Of a stretch of 43,074 nucleotides of DNA, positions 26,950-38,607 are shown piece after piece. The notes beneath the pieces are model-generated. The model was not told the origin of the DNA. It was given only the letters and a program-made list of their open reading frames with translations, and did not search any database. The position numbers were made by a program, and so were the translations under genes. The stretch covers positions 1 through 43,074 of the IMG/VR virus record IMGVR_UViG_3300032308_002278; one strand, given 5' to 3'. Positions within the stretch are counted from its first letter, which is position 1. Each line of letters starts with the position of its first letter. The stretch is from a virus.

Positions 26950-27222
26950 TTATGCTGGTGGTGTAAATGTTGTTCCGTCGTATGCCCAGTCGGTGCCTAT
27001 TGCTACTTGTGAAATAAGCTCGCCTTCTACACGATCTGGAAATGTTATATCTGTAATGTCAACAATTGTTGGATCGCTCAAAATTATAGCCCACATTCTT
27101 TCGTCTGTAGCTAGGGTCTGAACAACCTTACCATCAATAACATAAGCTAGCTTTTTAACGTTTTCTGCTGGCACTGCAACAGGAACTTCTTGTGTAGCTA
27201 ACCATTCTTCATATACTGTCAT
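26950..27222 (-). CDS. Small tail-assembly-like protein
   Basis: This 90-residue protein starts MTVYEEWLATQEVPVAVPAE. It has the hairpin KLAYVIDGKVVQTLATDERM, then VDITDITFPDRVEGELISQ and a C-terminal DWAYDGTTFTPPA, the same order as the other small helper proteins (15299-15541, 15541-15819). I chose the ATG at 27222 because it has a strong ribosome site (AGAGGAGGAAATAAT) and overlaps the upstream stop as ATGA. Longer starts would run through the cysteine-rich gene upstream. It likely assists a neighbouring fibre. Confidence 0.72.
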   Translation of the reverse strand: MTVYEEWLATQEVPVAVPAENVKKLAYVIDGKVVQTLATDERMWAIILSDPTIVDITDITFPDRVEGELISQVAIGTDWAYDGTTFTPPA

Positions 27223-27461
27223 ATTATTTCCTCCTCTATTTTTGTTTGTCCCCATTTTCCAATAGGGCATTCTGCATTTGGTAATTTTGTTTTTGCCGTC
27301 ATAAGGCAACCACATTTTTTGCACTGGCTAGTAGTTTTTATAAAAAAAGTACAGGCTTTACAAATCTCAAGTCTTTGTTCTGCTGTTAATGTGTCTACAC
27401 GTCCTATTTTTTTATTATATAGGTCCCATGGCCTTGCTGGCCTCTCAAAAGGATCAACCAT
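27219..27461 (-). CDS. Small zinc-binding-type phage protein
   Basis: This 80-residue protein starts MVDPFERPARPWDLYNKKIG and has six cysteines: C34-x2-C37, C47-x2-C50-x-C52 and C65 in ECPIGKW. The phrase SQCKKCGCLMTAKT with a final ECPIGKW is typical of small proteins I know from many aquatic phages, where a zinc or iron site is expected but the role is unknown. It is coupled to the next gene by an ATGA overlap, and its own start lies 8 nt inside the end of 27454-27852. It may be a metal-dependent helper of the fibre block. Confidence 0.78.
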   Translation of the reverse strand: MVDPFERPARPWDLYNKKIGRVDTLTAEQRLEICKACTFFIKTTSQCKKCGCLMTAKTKLPNAECPIGKWGQTKIEEEII

Positions 27462-27852: not shown

Positions 27853-29082
27853 TTAGTTGACCCTAAATTCATCTATTGTATACCCTTGGCTTGCATTTGA
27901 AGCTCTTGAAATTATACCATGGTCTTTTGACTTTTGTCCAGTATTTACCGCATTTAGATTTGATCCTATCTGTGAAGAATAGTTAGTATCTGAATAGGCT
28001 TGCGCTGTAACGTTATTTCCATCTGTAGTGACCTTAATTCCAGCAATTTGCGATGAAGAATTGCTTGTTGAGGACAGAACTGTTTCTGATCCATTTTCTT
28101 TTTTAATTAATTCTATTTTATGCTGGTCTGCACAATTGCAATTATAAGTGTATGATGAAGCACATCCGCATGCTGCGCTAGCGCCATAAGAGTATCCATT
28201 GCAATATTGACACTGATTATAGGCTCCACATACAGTGCAAGAAGTATAACCTGTGCAAGTAAACTGTTCTGAATATCCTGTACAAACTTGACATGTTCCA
28301 TATGTGCTGCACTGCAAGCATGCGCCATAACCTAAGCATGTAGAAACTGAACAAGTTCCATATGAGGAGCAGGTTTCGCATGTGCCATAACTAAAACATA
28401 AAGTTTGGGAACAAAAAAAATATTGACTACAAACAACTCCACCTTTGTATGAATTATAAACATATGCTGCACAGCAAAATCTGCCGTAATATGTATAATA
28501 TTCAGTACAACAACTTGAGCTGGTGTATGCTTGGCAACATGTATAGTAATAATCTACAAATCCTGCTGCACAACAAACAACATAGGTATAAGCTGTACAG
28601 CATGTAGTTGTGCCGTATGAAGAACAGACTGTAGTGTACCCGTATGTACTGCAACATTGTGTTTGTGTATAAGAAGCGCATCCGCAGCTTGAGTCTGACC
28701 CATATGCATATGAACTACAATAAGAACAACTATTATATACACCGCAGGCAGAGCATGTTTGACAAATATTTGTTGTATTTTTTACTACTGCCCAATAATT
28801 TCCAGAGTCTGTAATCCAGAAAGCTGGACCTATTCCAGATGCTGGATTTTTTGCTTTAATAACTGCATTTGTAGATGAAAATGTTGTTGAAATTAATGAA
28901 CCAATTGCAACTGAAGTTCCTTTTCCTGCAGCAATAGTCCAGCCAGAAATAACCTGTTTCCATTTGGCAGATGTTGTTCCTGCATTTACAAGAGTAAGTC
29001 TGCTAAAATCTTCTACGAGTGAAAGCAAGGCTTTTAGCCTTGAGATGGATGCACTATGTCTTCTTCTGGGTCCCCTTGGCAT
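27853..29082 (-). CDS. Tail-type protein: LamG-like sandwich split by a 40-cysteine Cys/Tyr-rich insert
   Basis: This 409-residue protein has three parts. Residues 25-104 (FSRLTLVNAGTTSAKWKQV, AFWITDSGNYWAVVKNTT) and 322-409 (KIELIKKENGSETVLSS, ending QGYTIDEFRVN) read as two halves of one LamG-like beta-sandwich. Between them, residues 107-317 contain all 40 cysteines of the protein (about 19 percent of the insert), with many Tyr, Ser, Thr and Gly. The insert begins and ends with matching modules (CGVYNSCSYC, then CGC near 133-135; CGAYNQCQYC, then CGC near 305-307). Between these lie vicinal CC pairs spaced 9 or 12 residues apart and later C-x2-C repeats. The start at 29082 overlaps the upstream stop (TAATG). 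I know no assigned function; a disulphide- or metal-stabilised receptor tip is inferred. Confidence 0.8.
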   Translation of the reverse strand: MPRGPRRRHSASISRLKALLSLVEDFSRLTLVNAGTTSAKWKQVISGWTIAAGKGTSVAIGSLISTTFSSTNAVIKAKNPASGIGPAFWITDSGNYWAVVKNTTNICQTCSACGVYNSCSYCSSYAYGSDSSCGCASYTQTQCCSTYGYTTVCSSYGTTTCCTAYTYVVCCAAGFVDYYYTCCQAYTSSSCCTEYYTYYGRFCCAAYVYNSYKGGVVCSQYFFCSQTLCFSYGTCETCSSYGTCSVSTCLGYGACLQCSTYGTCQVCTGYSEQFTCTGYTSCTVCGAYNQCQYCNGYSYGASAACGCASSYTYNCNCADQHKIELIKKENGSETVLSSTSNSSSQIAGIKVTTDGNNVTAQAYSDTNYSSQIGSNLNAVNTGQKSKDHGIISRASNASQGYTIDEFRVN

Positions 29083-30272
29083 TATGCAGTTGTATCTCCT
29101 GTAACTAGCCAGGAATTAGCTGACCTCTTTTCAAGCATAATAGTACTCCATTGAACTCTTGATTTAAACTGAGCGTCTGTTCCATTCATGGTTACTGCCG
29201 CATCTTTTGTAATTGTAACTTGGCCTGTTCCTACTTGTCTTACTTCAACCATTGATCCAATTGGCCAGCCAGCATCTTGTGTGTCATTTGGAATTGTAAT
29301 TGTTGTAGCTACGCTACATTCTATTAGCTTATTTTTGTCTGTTGAGGAGTTAATTGTTCTTGTTGTCTGAGGCTCTGCTATATAAGAAATTAAAGCTTTT
29401 GTATTATCTGAAGTATTGTCAACATTTGCTAATCCAACATCGCCTTTAACTAATCCTGAAGGCTGATTAATAATTGGAGAGTTTAATGTTTTGTTAGTAA
29501 GCTCTTCTGTACCCGATAGAGTTACAAAATCTGCATCTGATATGGCAGCATTAAATTGTGCTTTAGTGCCAGTCAGAGTGTTTGAAGTTAAATTTATGGT
29601 TTTATTAGAAAGAGTATCTGTGCTTGAGGCAGTTATTTTTGTGCCTAAAGCTGTTGTTACTGTTGCGGCATATGAGGCATCGTCATTTATTGCTGCTGCT
29701 AATTCGTTTAATGTGTTTAAAGCGTCAGGTGCTGTATCAACAAGATTTGATATTGCTGTGCTAATTGCGGTATTTCTATTTGTTACTTCGGCGCTTATAG
29801 CTGATGAGATTTCTGTATCTCTTGCAATTGAAGCAGGTATTTGTGACTCTGGAACAAAACCATCTGAGTCTAGTTCTGCTACTCCATCAACCTGTCCTAA
29901 TAAACTTAATGGGATATAAGTTGTTGCAGATGTACTGCTTAGTCCAGATACAGCGGTATCTACATATGTCTTGTTAGCAATAGTATTGTCAACAGCTATT
30001 GTTAATGTATTTGCAGAATCATTATAGCTTTTTGTAATTCCTGTTCCTGCAGTAATTGCTTCTTCTACAAAATCTTGAGCAAGCTCTTTTAGTTCACTTG
30101 GGATAACATTTAAATAAGGCAGCACATTCCATCTAGAGGTTTCATTTGAAGCAATTCCAACCTTAAACCTATTTACTGTTATATCAAAGCCAAATTCTCC
30201 AACTTGTAATATTGGATTATTGGTTGACCAGTTAGTAGAGGTGTCTCTTCTTACTTGTAATCTAATTGCCAT
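29082..30272 (-). CDS. Tail fibre with Mtd-like N terminus
   Basis: This 396-residue fibre starts MAIRLQVRRDTSTNWSTNNP, followed by LQVGEFGFDITVNRFKVGI. This is the pattern of the N-terminal docking domain of Bordetella phage Mtd and many aquatic phage fibres. It then has one QD/YND module (LAQDFVEEAITAGTGITKSY), a block with YIPLSLLGQVDGVAELDSDG, an Ala-rich helical stretch (LNELAAAINDDASYAATVTT) and a beta tip ending TIMLEKRSANSWLVTG. A TATAAT box (30301-30306) and a TAGGAG ribosome site precede the ATG at 30272. The gene is a close relative of 32595-33785. Confidence 0.82.
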   Translation of the reverse strand: MAIRLQVRRDTSTNWSTNNPILQVGEFGFDITVNRFKVGIASNETSRWNVLPYLNVIPSELKELAQDFVEEAITAGTGITKSYNDSANTLTIAVDNTIANKTYVDTAVSGLSSTSATTYIPLSLLGQVDGVAELDSDGFVPESQIPASIARDTEISSAISAEVTNRNTAISTAISNLVDTAPDALNTLNELAAAINDDASYAATVTTALGTKITASSTDTLSNKTINLTSNTLTGTKAQFNAAISDADFVTLSGTEELTNKTLNSPIINQPSGLVKGDVGLANVDNTSDNTKALISYIAEPQTTRTINSSTDKNKLIECSVATTITIPNDTQDAGWPIGSMVEVRQVGTGQVTITKDAAVTMNGTDAQFKSRVQWSTIMLEKRSANSWLVTGDTTA

Positions 30273-30692: not shown

Positions 30693-31070
30693 TTAGTAAT
30701 ATTCTACTACTTGCCATCGACAAGCACCTGTTGCTGTCAATGTTGTTGAATTTGTCAAACTTACTCCATACTCTGCTGATGTTAAAGAAGTAGATCCACC
30801 AGAGAGACTTCGTGTTCCTATAAAATTTGGAAAAGAACCCCCGCCCATTGCGCCATTAGCTTGCGTTGCAACCGATCCTCCAGAAGGCGTTAATGTACCA
30901 CTTTCTGAACTATTTGTTGCTACGGTTCCTTCTGATCCTGTTGAAAATGATGTAACAAAAGACTTTAAAGTGTTTACAGATGAAATTGTTATTGCTCCTG
31001 ATGAAGCTGTTGTGCCACGCTGGATAGATTTAATTGCTGAAGAAACTATTGGATAAGATTTAATTGTCAT
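30693..31070 (-). CDS. Tandem tail protein paralogue, copy 4 in transcription order
   Basis: This 125-residue protein is the last-transcribed of four adjacent relatives. Shared landmarks are an N-terminal IKSIQRGTTASSGAITISSV, a KSFxxSF strand, a SGTLTPSGGSV turn, GTRSLSGGSTSLTSAEYGV and a fixed C terminus (TGACRWQVVEYY). The variable middle (ATQANGAMGGGSFPNF here) is where the copies differ most. The start at 31070 overlaps the previous stop (TAATG). These small, cysteine-poor beta proteins are likely a multi-subunit tail ornament or receptor binder. Confidence 0.78.
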   Translation of the reverse strand: MTIKSYPIVSSAIKSIQRGTTASSGAITISSVNTLKSFVTSFSTGSEGTVATNSSESGTLTPSGGSVATQANGAMGGGSFPNFIGTRSLSGGSTSLTSAEYGVSLTNSTTLTATGACRWQVVEYY

Positions 31071-31456
31071 TATGAATACTCAACTACTTCCCACCGACAG
31101 GCTCCAGTAACCGATATTGTTGTAGAGTTAACTATATATGCACCGTACTCTTCAGTTGTAACAGATGTGCTTCCTCCGCTAAATGATCTTGTCCCAGAAT
31201 AGTTTGCAAATGTTCCTCCTCCAGCAATTGCTCCACCACCGCCACCTGGGCCAACAACGCTTCCTCCAGACGGGCTTAAGGTGCCAGACTCATTTCCTGT
31301 AATCTGAGCGGACCCAGCGGATGAGGTTGAAAATGATCTAATAAAAGATTTATTAATATCTATAGATGTAATTGTTATATTACCTCCGCTAGCGGACGAA
31401 CCTCTTTGAATAGATTTAATTACGGAAATAGTTTCTGGAAATAAAGATGTTGCCAT
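31070..31456 (-). CDS. Tandem tail protein paralogue, copy 3
   Basis: This 128-residue relative of 30693-31070 has the same frame of conserved blocks (VIKSIQRGSSASGGNITITS, NKSFIRSFSTSSAG, TGACRWEVVEYS). Its middle contains a Gly-rich loop (GPGGGGGAIAGGGTFANYSG) absent from the other copies. I chose the ATG at 31456, which sits on the TAA of the upstream copy (TAATG), over one 30 nt further upstream inside that gene. Like its neighbours it probably assembles on the tail. Confidence 0.78.
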   Translation of the reverse strand: MATSLFPETISVIKSIQRGSSASGGNITITSIDINKSFIRSFSTSSAGSAQITGNESGTLSPSGGSVVGPGGGGGAIAGGGTFANYSGTRSFSGGSTSVTTEEYGAYIVNSTTISVTGACRWEVVEYS

Positions 31457-31833
31457 TATAAATACTCCACAACTTGCCAAATGCAAGCTCCTGTTACGGT
31501 TATTGTTGTTGAGTTTACTAGATACGCACCATATTTAGCAACTGCTAAAGATGTTGTGCCTCCAGAAAGACTTCGTGTTCCAGAATAAGTTGGAAAAGAT
31601 CCAGACTGATTCCAACTGCCGCCTGGTGCTCCCACTGCTCCTCCACTTGGAGTATATGTTCCACTTGTATTAGCTGACCCAGCAACTGTTCCTGCTGCAC
31701 CGTTTGAAAAAGATGTAGCAAATGATTTATTTATATCAACTGATGAAATAGTAATATTTCCTGCAGATGCAGCGGTTCCTCTTTGAATGGATTTGATTGG
31801 TGAAGAAACTAATGGATATATTCTAGATCCCAT
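31456..31833 (-). CDS. Tandem tail protein paralogue, copy 2
   Basis: This 125-residue relative starts MGSRIYPLVSSPIKSIQRGT. Conserved blocks are ITISSVDINKSFATSFSNG, SGTYTPSGGAVGAPGG, GTRSLSGGTTSLAVAKYGA and the end TGACIWQVVEYL. The Arg that the other copies have in the ACRW motif is Ile here. The start at 31833 uses the TAATG junction; a longer start 24 nt upstream would lie in the previous gene. Copies 2 and 4 are most alike in their opening block (YPxVSSxIKSIQRGTxAS). Confidence 0.78.
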   Translation of the reverse strand: MGSRIYPLVSSPIKSIQRGTAASAGNITISSVDINKSFATSFSNGAAGTVAGSANTSGTYTPSGGAVGAPGGSWNQSGSFPTYSGTRSLSGGTTSLAVAKYGAYLVNSTTITVTGACIWQVVEYL

Positions 31834-32213
31834 TATGTATACTCCACAACTTCCCACCGACAGGCTCCAGTTAAAGTTATTGTAGTGGAGTTTAATAGAA
31901 ATGCTCCGTAAGCAGAAGAGACTAAAGAAGTTGAGCCACCGCTAAATCCTCTGGTGCCAACTAAATTGGGCCAGCTTCCACTTCCTGGGTTATAAGATTG
32001 AGAGTATTGACCAAAGTTACCACCTTGCGGAGTATATGTGCCAGATGTGTTGCTGTTAGTTGCAATTGAACCTGCTGATCCAGTTGAAAATGAATTTATA
32101 AATGATTTAGATATATCAATTTGCGATATAGTTACGTTTCCAGCAGAGGCAGATGAGCCTCTTTGAACGGATTTAATAATTGAAGCTGTTGCTGGAAATG
32201 TGCTATATGCCAT
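31833..32213 (-). CDS. Tandem tail protein paralogue, copy 1 (first transcribed)
   Basis: This 126-residue relative starts MAYSTFPATASIIKSVQRGS. It has ISKSFINSFSTGSAGSIATN, a Tyr-rich variable loop (FGQYSQSYNPGSGSWPNLVG) and the conserved end (TGACRWEVVEYT). It follows the 32215-32544 gene by one base. It heads the chain of four genes linked by stop/start overlaps, so all four should be made in similar amounts by re-initiation. Confidence 0.78.
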   Translation of the reverse strand: MAYSTFPATASIIKSVQRGSSASAGNVTISQIDISKSFINSFSTGSAGSIATNSNTSGTYTPQGGNFGQYSQSYNPGSGSWPNLVGTRGFSGGSTSLVSSAYGAFLLNSTTITLTGACRWEVVEYT

Positions 32214-36661: not shown

Positions 36662-36689
36662 ATTCTACCATACTAGGCAGATATGTCTA
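36662..36689 (-). promoter_or_regulatory. Promoter of the holin gene, inside the reductase 3' end
   Basis: TAGACA (36684-36689) is followed by 16 nt and TAGAAT (36662-36667) with TGG just before it. The -35 box is within the last codons of the reductase gene, so the holin may be expressed independently of it. The same 10-base string around the -10 recurs upstream of the reductase. Confidence 0.55.
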
Positions 36690-38607
36690 CTATCTCACAA
36701 TTTCCATCTGATGTACATGCAAGAGTAGCATTTGTTGAGGTTCCGTCTTCTGTTTCATAAAATGATAGATCTTCCCAACGAATATTTTTAGGCATTTTTG
36801 CAACAAGTGCATCATATTCTGCTTTATCAACTTCCTGATATGGTGCTTGTTTATAAGTGTGATCTGAATGAGGAAGGAACGAGATTCCAGATACCTCATC
36901 AAAATGCTTATACACCCAAGCTCCGACTTCCATCCACTCTTCTTCTTTTACAGATACAGTAATTGATGGCTTGTGCTCACACCATGCACGTTGATAAACT
37001 AACCAAGTGTTAAGGTGGTCTAGTGCTGTTAAATCATTTCTAACGATTGCGCCTTCTGGCGCTTTAACTGGAAATGAAAATACGTATGTGTCATTTGGTT
37101 TCATTACATCATCTTCTACTGGAATTCCAACTTCCTTTAAAAATGTAGAGATTGGATCTCCTTTTGAACCACGAACTGTACGAATATAATACGGTGAATG
37201 CCAAGGATGCATTCCTGAAGATACCCCGACCAATTGGGAAACTGTACCTGAAGGCTTTACGCATGTAATAGCTGCAGACTCGGGAATCCCAATTTTCCCA
37301 GCCTCTTCTTTATTCATTTCTCTTGCATACTCACGAAGTCCAGATAGTGTTGTTTCAAGCTTATCTAGCCCTTGCTTTCCAGAAAAGAACTTATGTCCAA
37401 ATTGTCCAGTTAATGAAACTCCAAGCAGGCGTTCTTCTTCTGTATTATCTTTCCAAATTTTTCTTAAATACTTAAAGTCTGTTAATGTTGATTGCCATGT
37501 CCCCAAAATTGTAGCCAGGCGAACTTTATTTGAAACATCTTCAACTGTATCCTTTTCACGTAATACGACTTCTGAAAGATTACAAAACTGGTAAGGACGT
37601 AAAATAATCTCTGAGCATGGGTTAGTTCCGTAGTGAATATCTGGATCTCTTCTTCCATACTTGGCTGCTTGGGCTTGAGCTGCGGCCACATTGTATATAC
37701 CTCGTTCTCCTGATTTTGAGTCATAAAGGTTTTTCCATTCTGCTATAAATTGTTCCATCTCTGGCTTGCGTGAATAAGCAACAGAGTTATTAGAAAGTGC
37801 ACGTTGAGTATTGTTTTCCCACCAATTACCAGATTTTGCTGCAGCCATCTCAATATCATTAATATTAGAAAGAGAAATCATTGCTGAGCGTCTTACTCCA
37901 CCAACTACCACAACTTCTCCAATTTTGCACATAATGTCGTGTGCCTCAATTGGCTTAAGTTGACGGCCTGCTGCATTTTTAAATTTTGCAATTGTAAAAT
38001 CAAAAAGGTTTACAAGTGGTTGTGGTCCTGATGAACGTCCACCCATTGTTTTAAGACGTGCACCTGCAGGACGGACCTTGGAAACATCAATAGCTGGAAT
38101 GTGTCCAGTCCAGAGCAATGCTAATAGCTCACGGTATGCTTTTGCCCAGCCTTGCTTTGAATCTTCTACAACAATTACTGTATCTGACTTCTCAAATGAA
38201 TCTGGGACGGAAGGAAGTTTATTAACATACTTATATTCAACAGAAAATCCTACGCCTGTTCCACACATAAGAATATACATGGTTTCGTCAAATGAACGTG
38301 GAGAGTCTACTGGAACAAATGAACAGTTATATCCTGCTACATTGTCTCTTTCTAATGCTGCTCCAGATGTCATTACAGAGCGCATAGACGGCATTACATT
38401 TCTTTGGAACACACCGTCTTTTAATTCCGCTACAAGCTTCTCATCTGGAATATAATTATGATTTTCTTTTAAATGATTTAACATAAAAGCAAAGTATCTA
38501 TCAACTGTTTCGCCCCATGTTTCACGTCTATTCTCTTCTGGAATCCATCTTGCATATCGAGATAACGCAATAAAATTTTCATATGGGTTAGCAATAGTCT
38601 TTGACAT
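36673..38607 (-). CDS. nrdJ: Class II (adenosylcobalamin-dependent) ribonucleoside-triphosphate reductase
   Basis: This 644-residue enzyme reduces ribonucleotides to deoxyribonucleotides for phage DNA synthesis, using a cobalamin-generated thiyl radical. It aligns with the monomeric Lactobacillus leichmannii type: Cys95 in GYNCSFVPV and Cys342 as the active-site redox pair, Cys331 in NPCSEI as the thiyl radical residue with Asn329 and Glu333, and the exact 11-residue distance from Cys331 to Cys342 as in that enzyme. GTGVGFSVE (116-124), GGVRRSAMISLSN (236-248) and the IPESAAITCVKPSGTVSQLV region are further landmarks. Cys631 and Cys637 near the C terminus are the shuttle pair. All key residues are present, so it should be active. 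The 90-nt leader has no room for a cobalamin riboswitch. Confidence 0.95.
   Translation of the reverse strand: MSKTIANPYENFIALSRYARWIPEENRRETWGETVDRYFAFMLNHLKENHNYIPDEKLVAELKDGVFQRNVMPSMRSVMTSGAALERDNVAGYNCSFVPVDSPRSFDETMYILMCGTGVGFSVEYKYVNKLPSVPDSFEKSDTVIVVEDSKQGWAKAYRELLALLWTGHIPAIDVSKVRPAGARLKTMGGRSSGPQPLVNLFDFTIAKFKNAAGRQLKPIEAHDIMCKIGEVVVVGGVRRSAMISLSNINDIEMAAAKSGNWWENNTQRALSNNSVAYSRKPEMEQFIAEWKNLYDSKSGERGIYNVAAAQAQAAKYGRRDPDIHYGTNPCSEIILRPYQFCNLSEVVLREKDTVEDVSNKVRLATILGTWQSTLTDFKYLRKIWKDNTEEERLLGVSLTGQFGHKFFSGKQGLDKLETTLSGLREYAREMNKEEAGKIGIPESAAITCVKPSGTVSQLVGVSSGMHPWHSPYYIRTVRGSKGDPISTFLKEVGIPVEDDVMKPNDTYVFSFPVKAPEGAIVRNDLTALDHLNTWLVYQRAWCEHKPSITVSVKEEEWMEVGAWVYKHFDEVSGISFLPHSDHTYKQAPYQEVDKAEYDALVAKMPKNIRWEDLSFYETEDGTSTNATLACTSDGNCEIVDISA

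Follow-up and report, generated by a model that had tools for sequence, protein, structure and literature searches.

A Cys/Tyr-rich insert in an environmental phage adhesin: a candidate single-chain hairpin needle zipped by disulphides

Phage fibres usually owe their length to several chains that wind together, and such proteins are normally poor in cysteine. An adhesin gene on the minus strand (27853..29082) of the window, which is the whole 43,074-nucleotide stretch of an IMG/VR virus record analysed here, raises the question of what an insert with 40 cysteines could build in this setting. The reading that we favour, with a probability of about 0.7, is a single-chain antiparallel hairpin needle closed by about 20 cross-arm disulphides and borne on the ConA/LamG-like receptor-binding domain of a tail-fibre-associated adhesin.

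The gene, its insert and its relatives

The gene is complete, starts with ATG and encodes 409 residues, assigned to a split ConA/LamG-like sandwich with a hairpin insert. The N-terminal flank (residues 1-106; 28765..29082, minus strand as for all parts of the gene) ends in FWITDSGNYWAVVKNTTNI, would supply the first sandwich half and is common to all relatives. It is followed by an up-arm (residues 107-204; 28471..28764), whose 20 cysteines occupy positions 107, 110, 113, 119, 122, 133, 135, 143, 144, 153, 161, 162, 170, 171, 182, 183, 191, 192, 203 and 204. The centre (residues 205-217, AAYVYNSYKGGVV; 28432..28470) contains a predicted turn at 211-214 and K213, the sole lysine of the insert. 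A down-arm with another 20 cysteines (residues 218-317; 28132..28431) leads to the C-terminal flank (residues 318-409 and the stop; 27853..28131), the putative second half of the sandwich and likewise common to the relatives.

The initial annotation of this protein was correct in all details checked. The 40 cysteines all lie at residues 107-317, in frame in the ORF translation. The modules that it quoted are present (CGVYNSCSYC at 113-122 and CGAYNQCQYC at 285-294, with CGC following at 133-135 and 305-307), and the vicinal pairs 143/144, 161/162, 170/171, 182/183, 191/192 and 203/204 are spaced by 9 or 12 residues, or by 18 around the lone C153, which lies halfway. Cysteine (40 residues, 19%) and tyrosine (34, 16%) are accompanied in the insert by 30 Ser, 28 Thr and 20 Gly, while His, Trp, Met, Pro and Ile are absent. 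The Cys-poor setting expected of tail proteins was also found, with 0-2% Cys in the neighbouring fibre-type proteins and in the other ORFs of what is otherwise an ordinary tail-fibre gene cluster, except for one small CxxC protein (7.4%). In addition to what had been described, 20 cysteines stand on each side of a centre near residue 211 and the two halves are mirrored. A metallothionein-like metal store, which would be small, Cys-rich and aromatic-poor, was considered and rejected, given the 34 Tyr among 211 insert residues inside a 409-residue adhesin.

An extreme composition of this kind, in an ORF overlapped by alternative frames, could stem from a frameshifted or chimeric reading frame that is Cys/Tyr-rich by accident, and a frame error had been named at the outset as a possible source of the Cys region. 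The relatives rule out this reading of the window ORF: all 52 complete ones, drawn from many assemblies, share the frame and the plan, and in close pairs dN of the insert is well below dS (e.g. 0.054/0.25 and 0.14/1.24). An artefact is thus extremely improbable.

The search among environmental phage proteins that had been proposed located a family in IMG/VR, in which the window protein is not unique. Around 50 relatives share the split sandwich, and their Cys/Tyr-rich inserts differ greatly. Fourteen of them are close (51-90% identity to the window protein), and a second large branch was reached through the relative L016 (tblastn E 3e-9; profile-guided IMG/VR scans). Against A3, an alignment across both branches that includes the window protein as a row, this protein obtains an E of 1.7e-68. 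The common plan consists of a W-TDSGN(W/Y)(W/F) stretch, the Cys/Tyr insert and a C-terminal half with motifs of the YSD, QIGS and QG-T-DE type. The shortest insert has about 74 residues and the longest 476, and the repeat units differ as well, with 9/12 residues in the window clade, 7 in L017 and L029, 12-13 in L116 and 9-21 in L119. Both variation and recombination are stronger in the insert cassettes than in the flanks. Compared with the window protein, L005 has a diverged N-flank (76%) and a window-like insert (91%), while L013 has a window-like N-flank (88%) and a different insert (46%), a pattern of mosaic exchange.

In Pfam, no family was found for the window protein, nor any above cut-off for five divergent relatives, and the LamG/ConA profiles matched none of these six proteins. 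Searches of PHROG and of PDB sequences with the family protein gave no convincing match, four divergent members had no tblastn match in 50,697 phage records, and GTDB genome scans with two alignments found none either, so that no host link via a prophage is available. A Foldseek search of BFVD with the L017 model retrieved six proteins of uncultured Caudovirales deposited without a named function (A0A6J7WYT9, A0A6J5KM36, A0A6J5RDN1, A0A6J7WRS3, A0A6J5MLT4 and A0A6J5REI5; E 1.5e-23 to 2.4e-12, 14-31% identity), which are probable members of the same family. Stenotrophomonas phage IME-SM1 was tried as a cultured relative and rejected: the profile search was empty and its DUF6171-like gene does not lie beside a fibre gene.

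Mirrored arms and facing cysteines

The number of cysteines is even in 52/52 complete members and in 30/30 non-redundant ones. It ranges from 10 to 50, with more than a dozen distinct counts and none odd; a chance of 2 to the power of -30 nevertheless overstates the case, because members share ancestry. When the n-th cysteine from the start of the window insert is paired with the n-th from its end, i+j stays within 416-427 for all 20 pairs. The predicted rungs are 204-218, 203-224, 192-229, 191-235, 183-238, 182-244, 171-249, 170-255, 162-258 and 161-264 in the tip half, and 153-267, 144-276, 143-282, 135-285, 133-291, 122-294, 119-305, 113-307, 110-315 and 107-317 in the base half. Even numbers and nested one-to-one facing were both observed, as in a cystine-zipped hairpin, and since each cysteine faces its counterpart, as many as 20 disulphides could close the two arms against each other.

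The obvious short tandem repeats of these inserts (CSSYGTC, CNAASYP, CSTYGTVLNQAST) suggest another origin for the symmetry, namely a Cys-rich tandem-repeat solenoid or within-arm disulphide knots, of which mirroring would be a by-product. A spacing-shuffle test was significant in the window branch and in L016 but taken alone leaves room for this explanation in L017-L022, whose uniform 7-residue repeats gave p ~0.17-0.18; arm-swap, direct-order and co-divergence tests were therefore added. Up-arm spacing fits the down-arm of the same protein far better than those of other members (mean 0.063 versus 0.268), a result reached in 0/20,000 permutations (p < 5e-5). In L119, for instance, the spacings are 17,17,17,14,18,18,9,12,9,12,21,13,11,10,13,13,9 on the up-arm and 16,16,16,14,19,19,10,11,10,11,21,13,11,9,14,13,9 on the down-arm. 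Long Cys-free gaps also find their equals across the centre (41/42, 34/35 and 46/50). Compared with the direct order, which is what a solenoid would predict, the mirrored order gave the higher gap correlation (0.74 versus 0.37) and was better in 23 of the 30 members.

In the same way, rung-by-rung divergence between close relatives correlates in the mirrored register (r 0.53) but hardly two rungs off (0.08) or in direct order (0.04), and none of 5,000 rung permutations did as well. Part of this co-divergence could come from recombination tracts with the tip at their centre. As its sole cause they are disfavoured by the exchange between L030 and L033, since the rungs towards the tip differ little between the two. 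Together with the lack of odd counts and with the split chains described below, these results make a solenoid or within-arm knots quite improbable. They strongly support, at the level of sequence, two equal antiparallel arms that would run in register with facing cysteines.

Particular modules appear to be partners across the arms. In the window, CGVYNSCSYC (113-122) faces Cys 294, 305 and 307, the last two being those of the CGC at 305-307, while the CGC at 133-135 faces Cys 285 and 291, the first two of CGAYNQCQYC. The related modules at the two ends of the insert, to which the initial annotation drew attention, are explained as each other's partners on opposite arms. Compared with L030, the up-arm of L033 has GQYYYA/GGYYYA in place of two SPSYP heptads, and its down-arm has SPSYP in place of the two opposite heptads of GGYYYA type. 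L036 gained an extra cysteine on both arms, each time as CxC. From 20 + 20 cysteines in window-type proteins the number rises to 25 + 25 in L006-L009, where both arms gain a cysteine in the region of the lone C153. In L012-L014 the CC modules are on the down-arm and the wider-spaced cysteines on the up-arm. In clade 1, CC stands opposite C-x5-C, which requires alternating bulges, so that the arms would not form a plain flat ribbon.

A natural division of the adhesin falls at the same centre. It is encoded there as two ORFs broken at the middle of the hairpin (L059:6001-6525 and the next ORF; L125:1450-1971 and 1989-2471), both of which contain 10 Cys and have a start signal of their own. In L059 and L060, ORF 1 ends in NGACMMQ and a stop, and ORF 2 begins with MGRTCLIG about 9 nt after the Shine-Dalgarno-like AAGGGAAAGG. 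Each chain carries one sandwich half and 10 cysteines, which, counted from the base, form groups of 3,2,2,2,1 in either chain. The break coincides with the centre predicted from the Cys count, and the same point is marked by the predicted turn of the window protein and by Lys, which is enriched in the central gap across the family (18/36 versus 2.4 expected).

One-to-one mirrored cysteines in even numbers would also fit symmetric metal sites, and the facing residues of the same out-and-back needle might bind metal, within the chain or along a trimer axis, instead of forming disulphides. CxC, CxxC and CC motifs are abundant, and seven iron sites, held by histidines, lie along the needle of T4 gp37 (PMC6957217). 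Nevertheless, numerous members (L017, L070, L116 and L119, for instance) have isolated single rungs 7-40 residues apart, which offer too few ligands for a one-chain Cys4 site, and the window insert is devoid of His. Moreover, dense exposed thiols oxidise in oxic water, where virions live. Metal binding along the needle is accordingly improbable, if less so than a solenoid, and the even counts and coupled gain and loss of Cys are indirect signs that the cysteines would be oxidised in pairs. The initial annotation had also proposed a metal- or redox-sensing receptor tip; this found no support, as the centre is a Lys/Gly/Asn turn with no Cys cluster, His is missing and two phages carry Tyr-rich paralogues that are practically free of Cys. 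Its other suggestion, a disulphide ladder, was the best of its guesses and is retained in a specific form pointed to by the mirror tests, that is a cross-arm ladder in an antiparallel hairpin of 20 + 20 Cys.

The base domain and the proposed needle

AlphaFold (AF2) modelled the window protein from 12 sequences with low confidence (mean pLDDT 50), and this model was used for strand register alone. Its low-confidence strands at 96-110/315-329, 138-171/252-285 and 175-210/215-249, with a turn at 211-214, give an i+j of 423-425, in agreement with the register obtained from the cysteines; all Foldseek matches of this model were insignificant. With 29 sequences, both flanks of the homologue L017 were predicted as one confident domain (pLDDT ~85-97; mostly 79-97 in the N-terminal and 85-96 in the C-terminal flank). 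Strands within 95-114 and 238-258 enter the insert in register (i+j ~352). The insert itself was not confidently modelled in either run.

The nearest solved structure to the L017 model is the Douge central fibre, a modest Foldseek match (E 2.7e-3, TM 0.38, probability 1.0), below which rank ConA-like lectins and the receptor-binding domain of TM4 gp23. The L017 flanks are predicted to build a jelly-roll beta-sandwich at the level of the fold; as no PDB match fell below E 0.001, the ConA/LamG likeness is one of fold only. For this homologue, the prediction bears out the earlier views that the flanks together make up a single sandwich and that the insert projects from a loop, the exit lying between strands that stay in register. 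A lectin-like base with arms leaving between its strands is therefore supported by prediction.

In the proposed architecture, the two flanks would build one ConA/LamG-like sandwich, as predicted confidently for L017, from which the chain would leave between two neighbouring strands and run about 98 residues outward. It would reverse at a Lys/Gly turn (NSYKGG) and return antiparallel, with Tyr-rich stretches between the rungs. The disulphides would form after lysis, once the particle is released into oxic water, and a receptor on the host surface would then be contacted by the tip and loops of the stiff needle. In the window protein the needle would be no longer than some 30 nm, the length of 98 fully extended residues at 0.33 nm each, and bulges would shorten it; arms reach about 235 residues in the longest relative. 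Both the disulphide chemistry and the binding of a receptor are what we infer from this arrangement.

The needle may also exist without binding the receptor, as a spacer or stiff whisker with a structural or protective role, the sandwich being the binding part. In favour of this, the insert is under purifying and not diversifying selection (dN < dS), much of clade 1 keeps the turn (Y-x-Y-x(2)-YKGG-like) while the arms change, and the related Douge sandwich domains bind glycans alone (PMC13033339). On the other side, the cassettes are more variable and recombine more than the flanks, and several phages carry second versions, as for recognition modules. A purely structural needle is therefore unlikely, though the least so of the alternatives, and a receptor-binding needle is preferred.

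Several known systems share part of this plan. Theta-defensin, a cyclic peptide of 18 residues with three disulphides, forms a cystine ladder from two antiparallel strands with consecutive cross-strand bonds, and it has no sequence relation to the adhesin. In the T4 long tail fibre protein gp37, the distal needle D11 (residues 882-1009) is inserted in the collar domain D10 and binds the receptor at its distal tip (PMC6957217). As in the window family, an elongated out-and-back insertion splits a globular base domain. However, the T4 needle is a trimer with iron-histidine sites, while the window insert contains no His, the adhesin is proposed to join the two arms of a single chain through its cysteines, and its base resembles a lectin and not the T4 collar fold. 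Bovine ultralong CDR-H3 regions are also long, two-stranded and stalk-like insertions on a beta-sandwich, with cysteines almost always paired and variable in number, and 52-63 residues in reported structures (PMC6440498). They differ in belonging to an antibody and in having varied disulphides mainly in a terminal knob, whereas a nested ladder along the whole length is proposed for the adhesin, with inserts of up to 476 residues. By analogy, the adhesin might work like the gp37 needle and resemble the CDR-H3 stalk, being a member of neither. Among mycobacteriophages, the protein whose fold comes closest to the base domain is the Douge central fibre gp20 (8zdp), with a weaker match to the receptor-binding domain of TM4 gp23 (9n6a). 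In Douge, the domain at the tip of the fibre binds glycans of the mycobacterial cell wall (PMC13033339); both gp20 and gp23 differ from the adhesin in being full-length fibre proteins, and no account of a Cys-rich hairpin in either came up.

A keyword search of the open-licence literature for Cys-rich phage fibres and disulphide-laddered hairpins returned nothing relevant, and no description of such a disulphide-zipped hairpin architecture was found for any virus. The claim that this would be new for a tail fibre holds within the searches made. We lean, by a small margin over even odds, towards a new fibre principle, in which one chain would make a needle of tens of nm with up to 25 nested cross-arm disulphides and fixed complementary modules, rewritable rung by rung. 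The candidate partners are CC/C-x5-C, CNC/CQTC, SPSYP/GGYYY and KxxWYR/AxYAYN, and such fixed partnership on opposite arms would allow needles to be lengthened, shortened or rewritten per rung. If true, this would add to fibre architectures a single chain folded back and zipped to itself by cysteines, a protein analogue of strand complementarity readable from sequence alone. It would also account for widespread unannotated proteins of environmental phages, provide a rigid, modular scaffold that could be made longer or shorter through the choice of repeats, and raise the question of how a phage times and correctly orders some 20 disulphides. The protein can be classed as a phage adhesin with an inserted needle, and the zipped single-chain hairpin may merit a category of its own once its bonds have been measured.

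The locus and second family members

Upstream of the adhesin lies a tail-fibre protein gene (29082..30272, minus strand) with an Mtd_N N-terminus and a C-terminus of phrog_8780 type, which overlaps the adhesin start by 1 nt. This adjacency, often with the same overlap, recurs in both branches and points to translational coupling; the upstream fibre protein likely mounts the adhesin. Downstream, the window and most non-redundant relatives encode a small DUF6171-like CxxC protein (27219..27461, minus strand, in the window), and in most loci this gene lies within a few kb after the adhesin. A DUF6171-like protein is also found in cyanophages and in Stenotrophomonas phages. The window ribonucleotide reductase (36673-38607, minus strand) is ~67% identical to Streptomyces phage enzymes, which suggests, and does not prove, an actinobacterial host. 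Thioredoxin-like genes occur in 5 of 17 related contigs (G002, G003, G009, G013 and G015), where they are possibly linked to ribonucleotide reductase rather than to the adhesin; with this distribution, a phage-borne oxidant was rejected as a general feature of the family. Regarding diversity-generating retroelements (DGR), no reverse transcriptase (RVT_1) was found in the 17 related contigs, several of which are ~90-125 kb and perhaps incomplete.

Several phages carry a second, different family match. In G014 (L123, C1:20916-22085) and G011 (L124, C1:9802-10968), the second members have long inserts rich in Tyr, Thr, Ser and Gly at the same site, practically free of Cys. These paralogues suggest that the primary fold may be that of a Tyr-rich hairpin, which the disulphides would reinforce. 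The second member of G009 (L122, C1:85392-86402) has a different cassette of 12 Cys at this site (SCPSGGILSGTTC), with a spacing that is not clearly mirrored. Finally, four related small proteins of 125-138 residues are encoded in tandem at 30693-32213 (minus strand) of the window; they share the pattern IKSIQRG...SGTxxPSGG...FSGGSTS and are probably small virion proteins.
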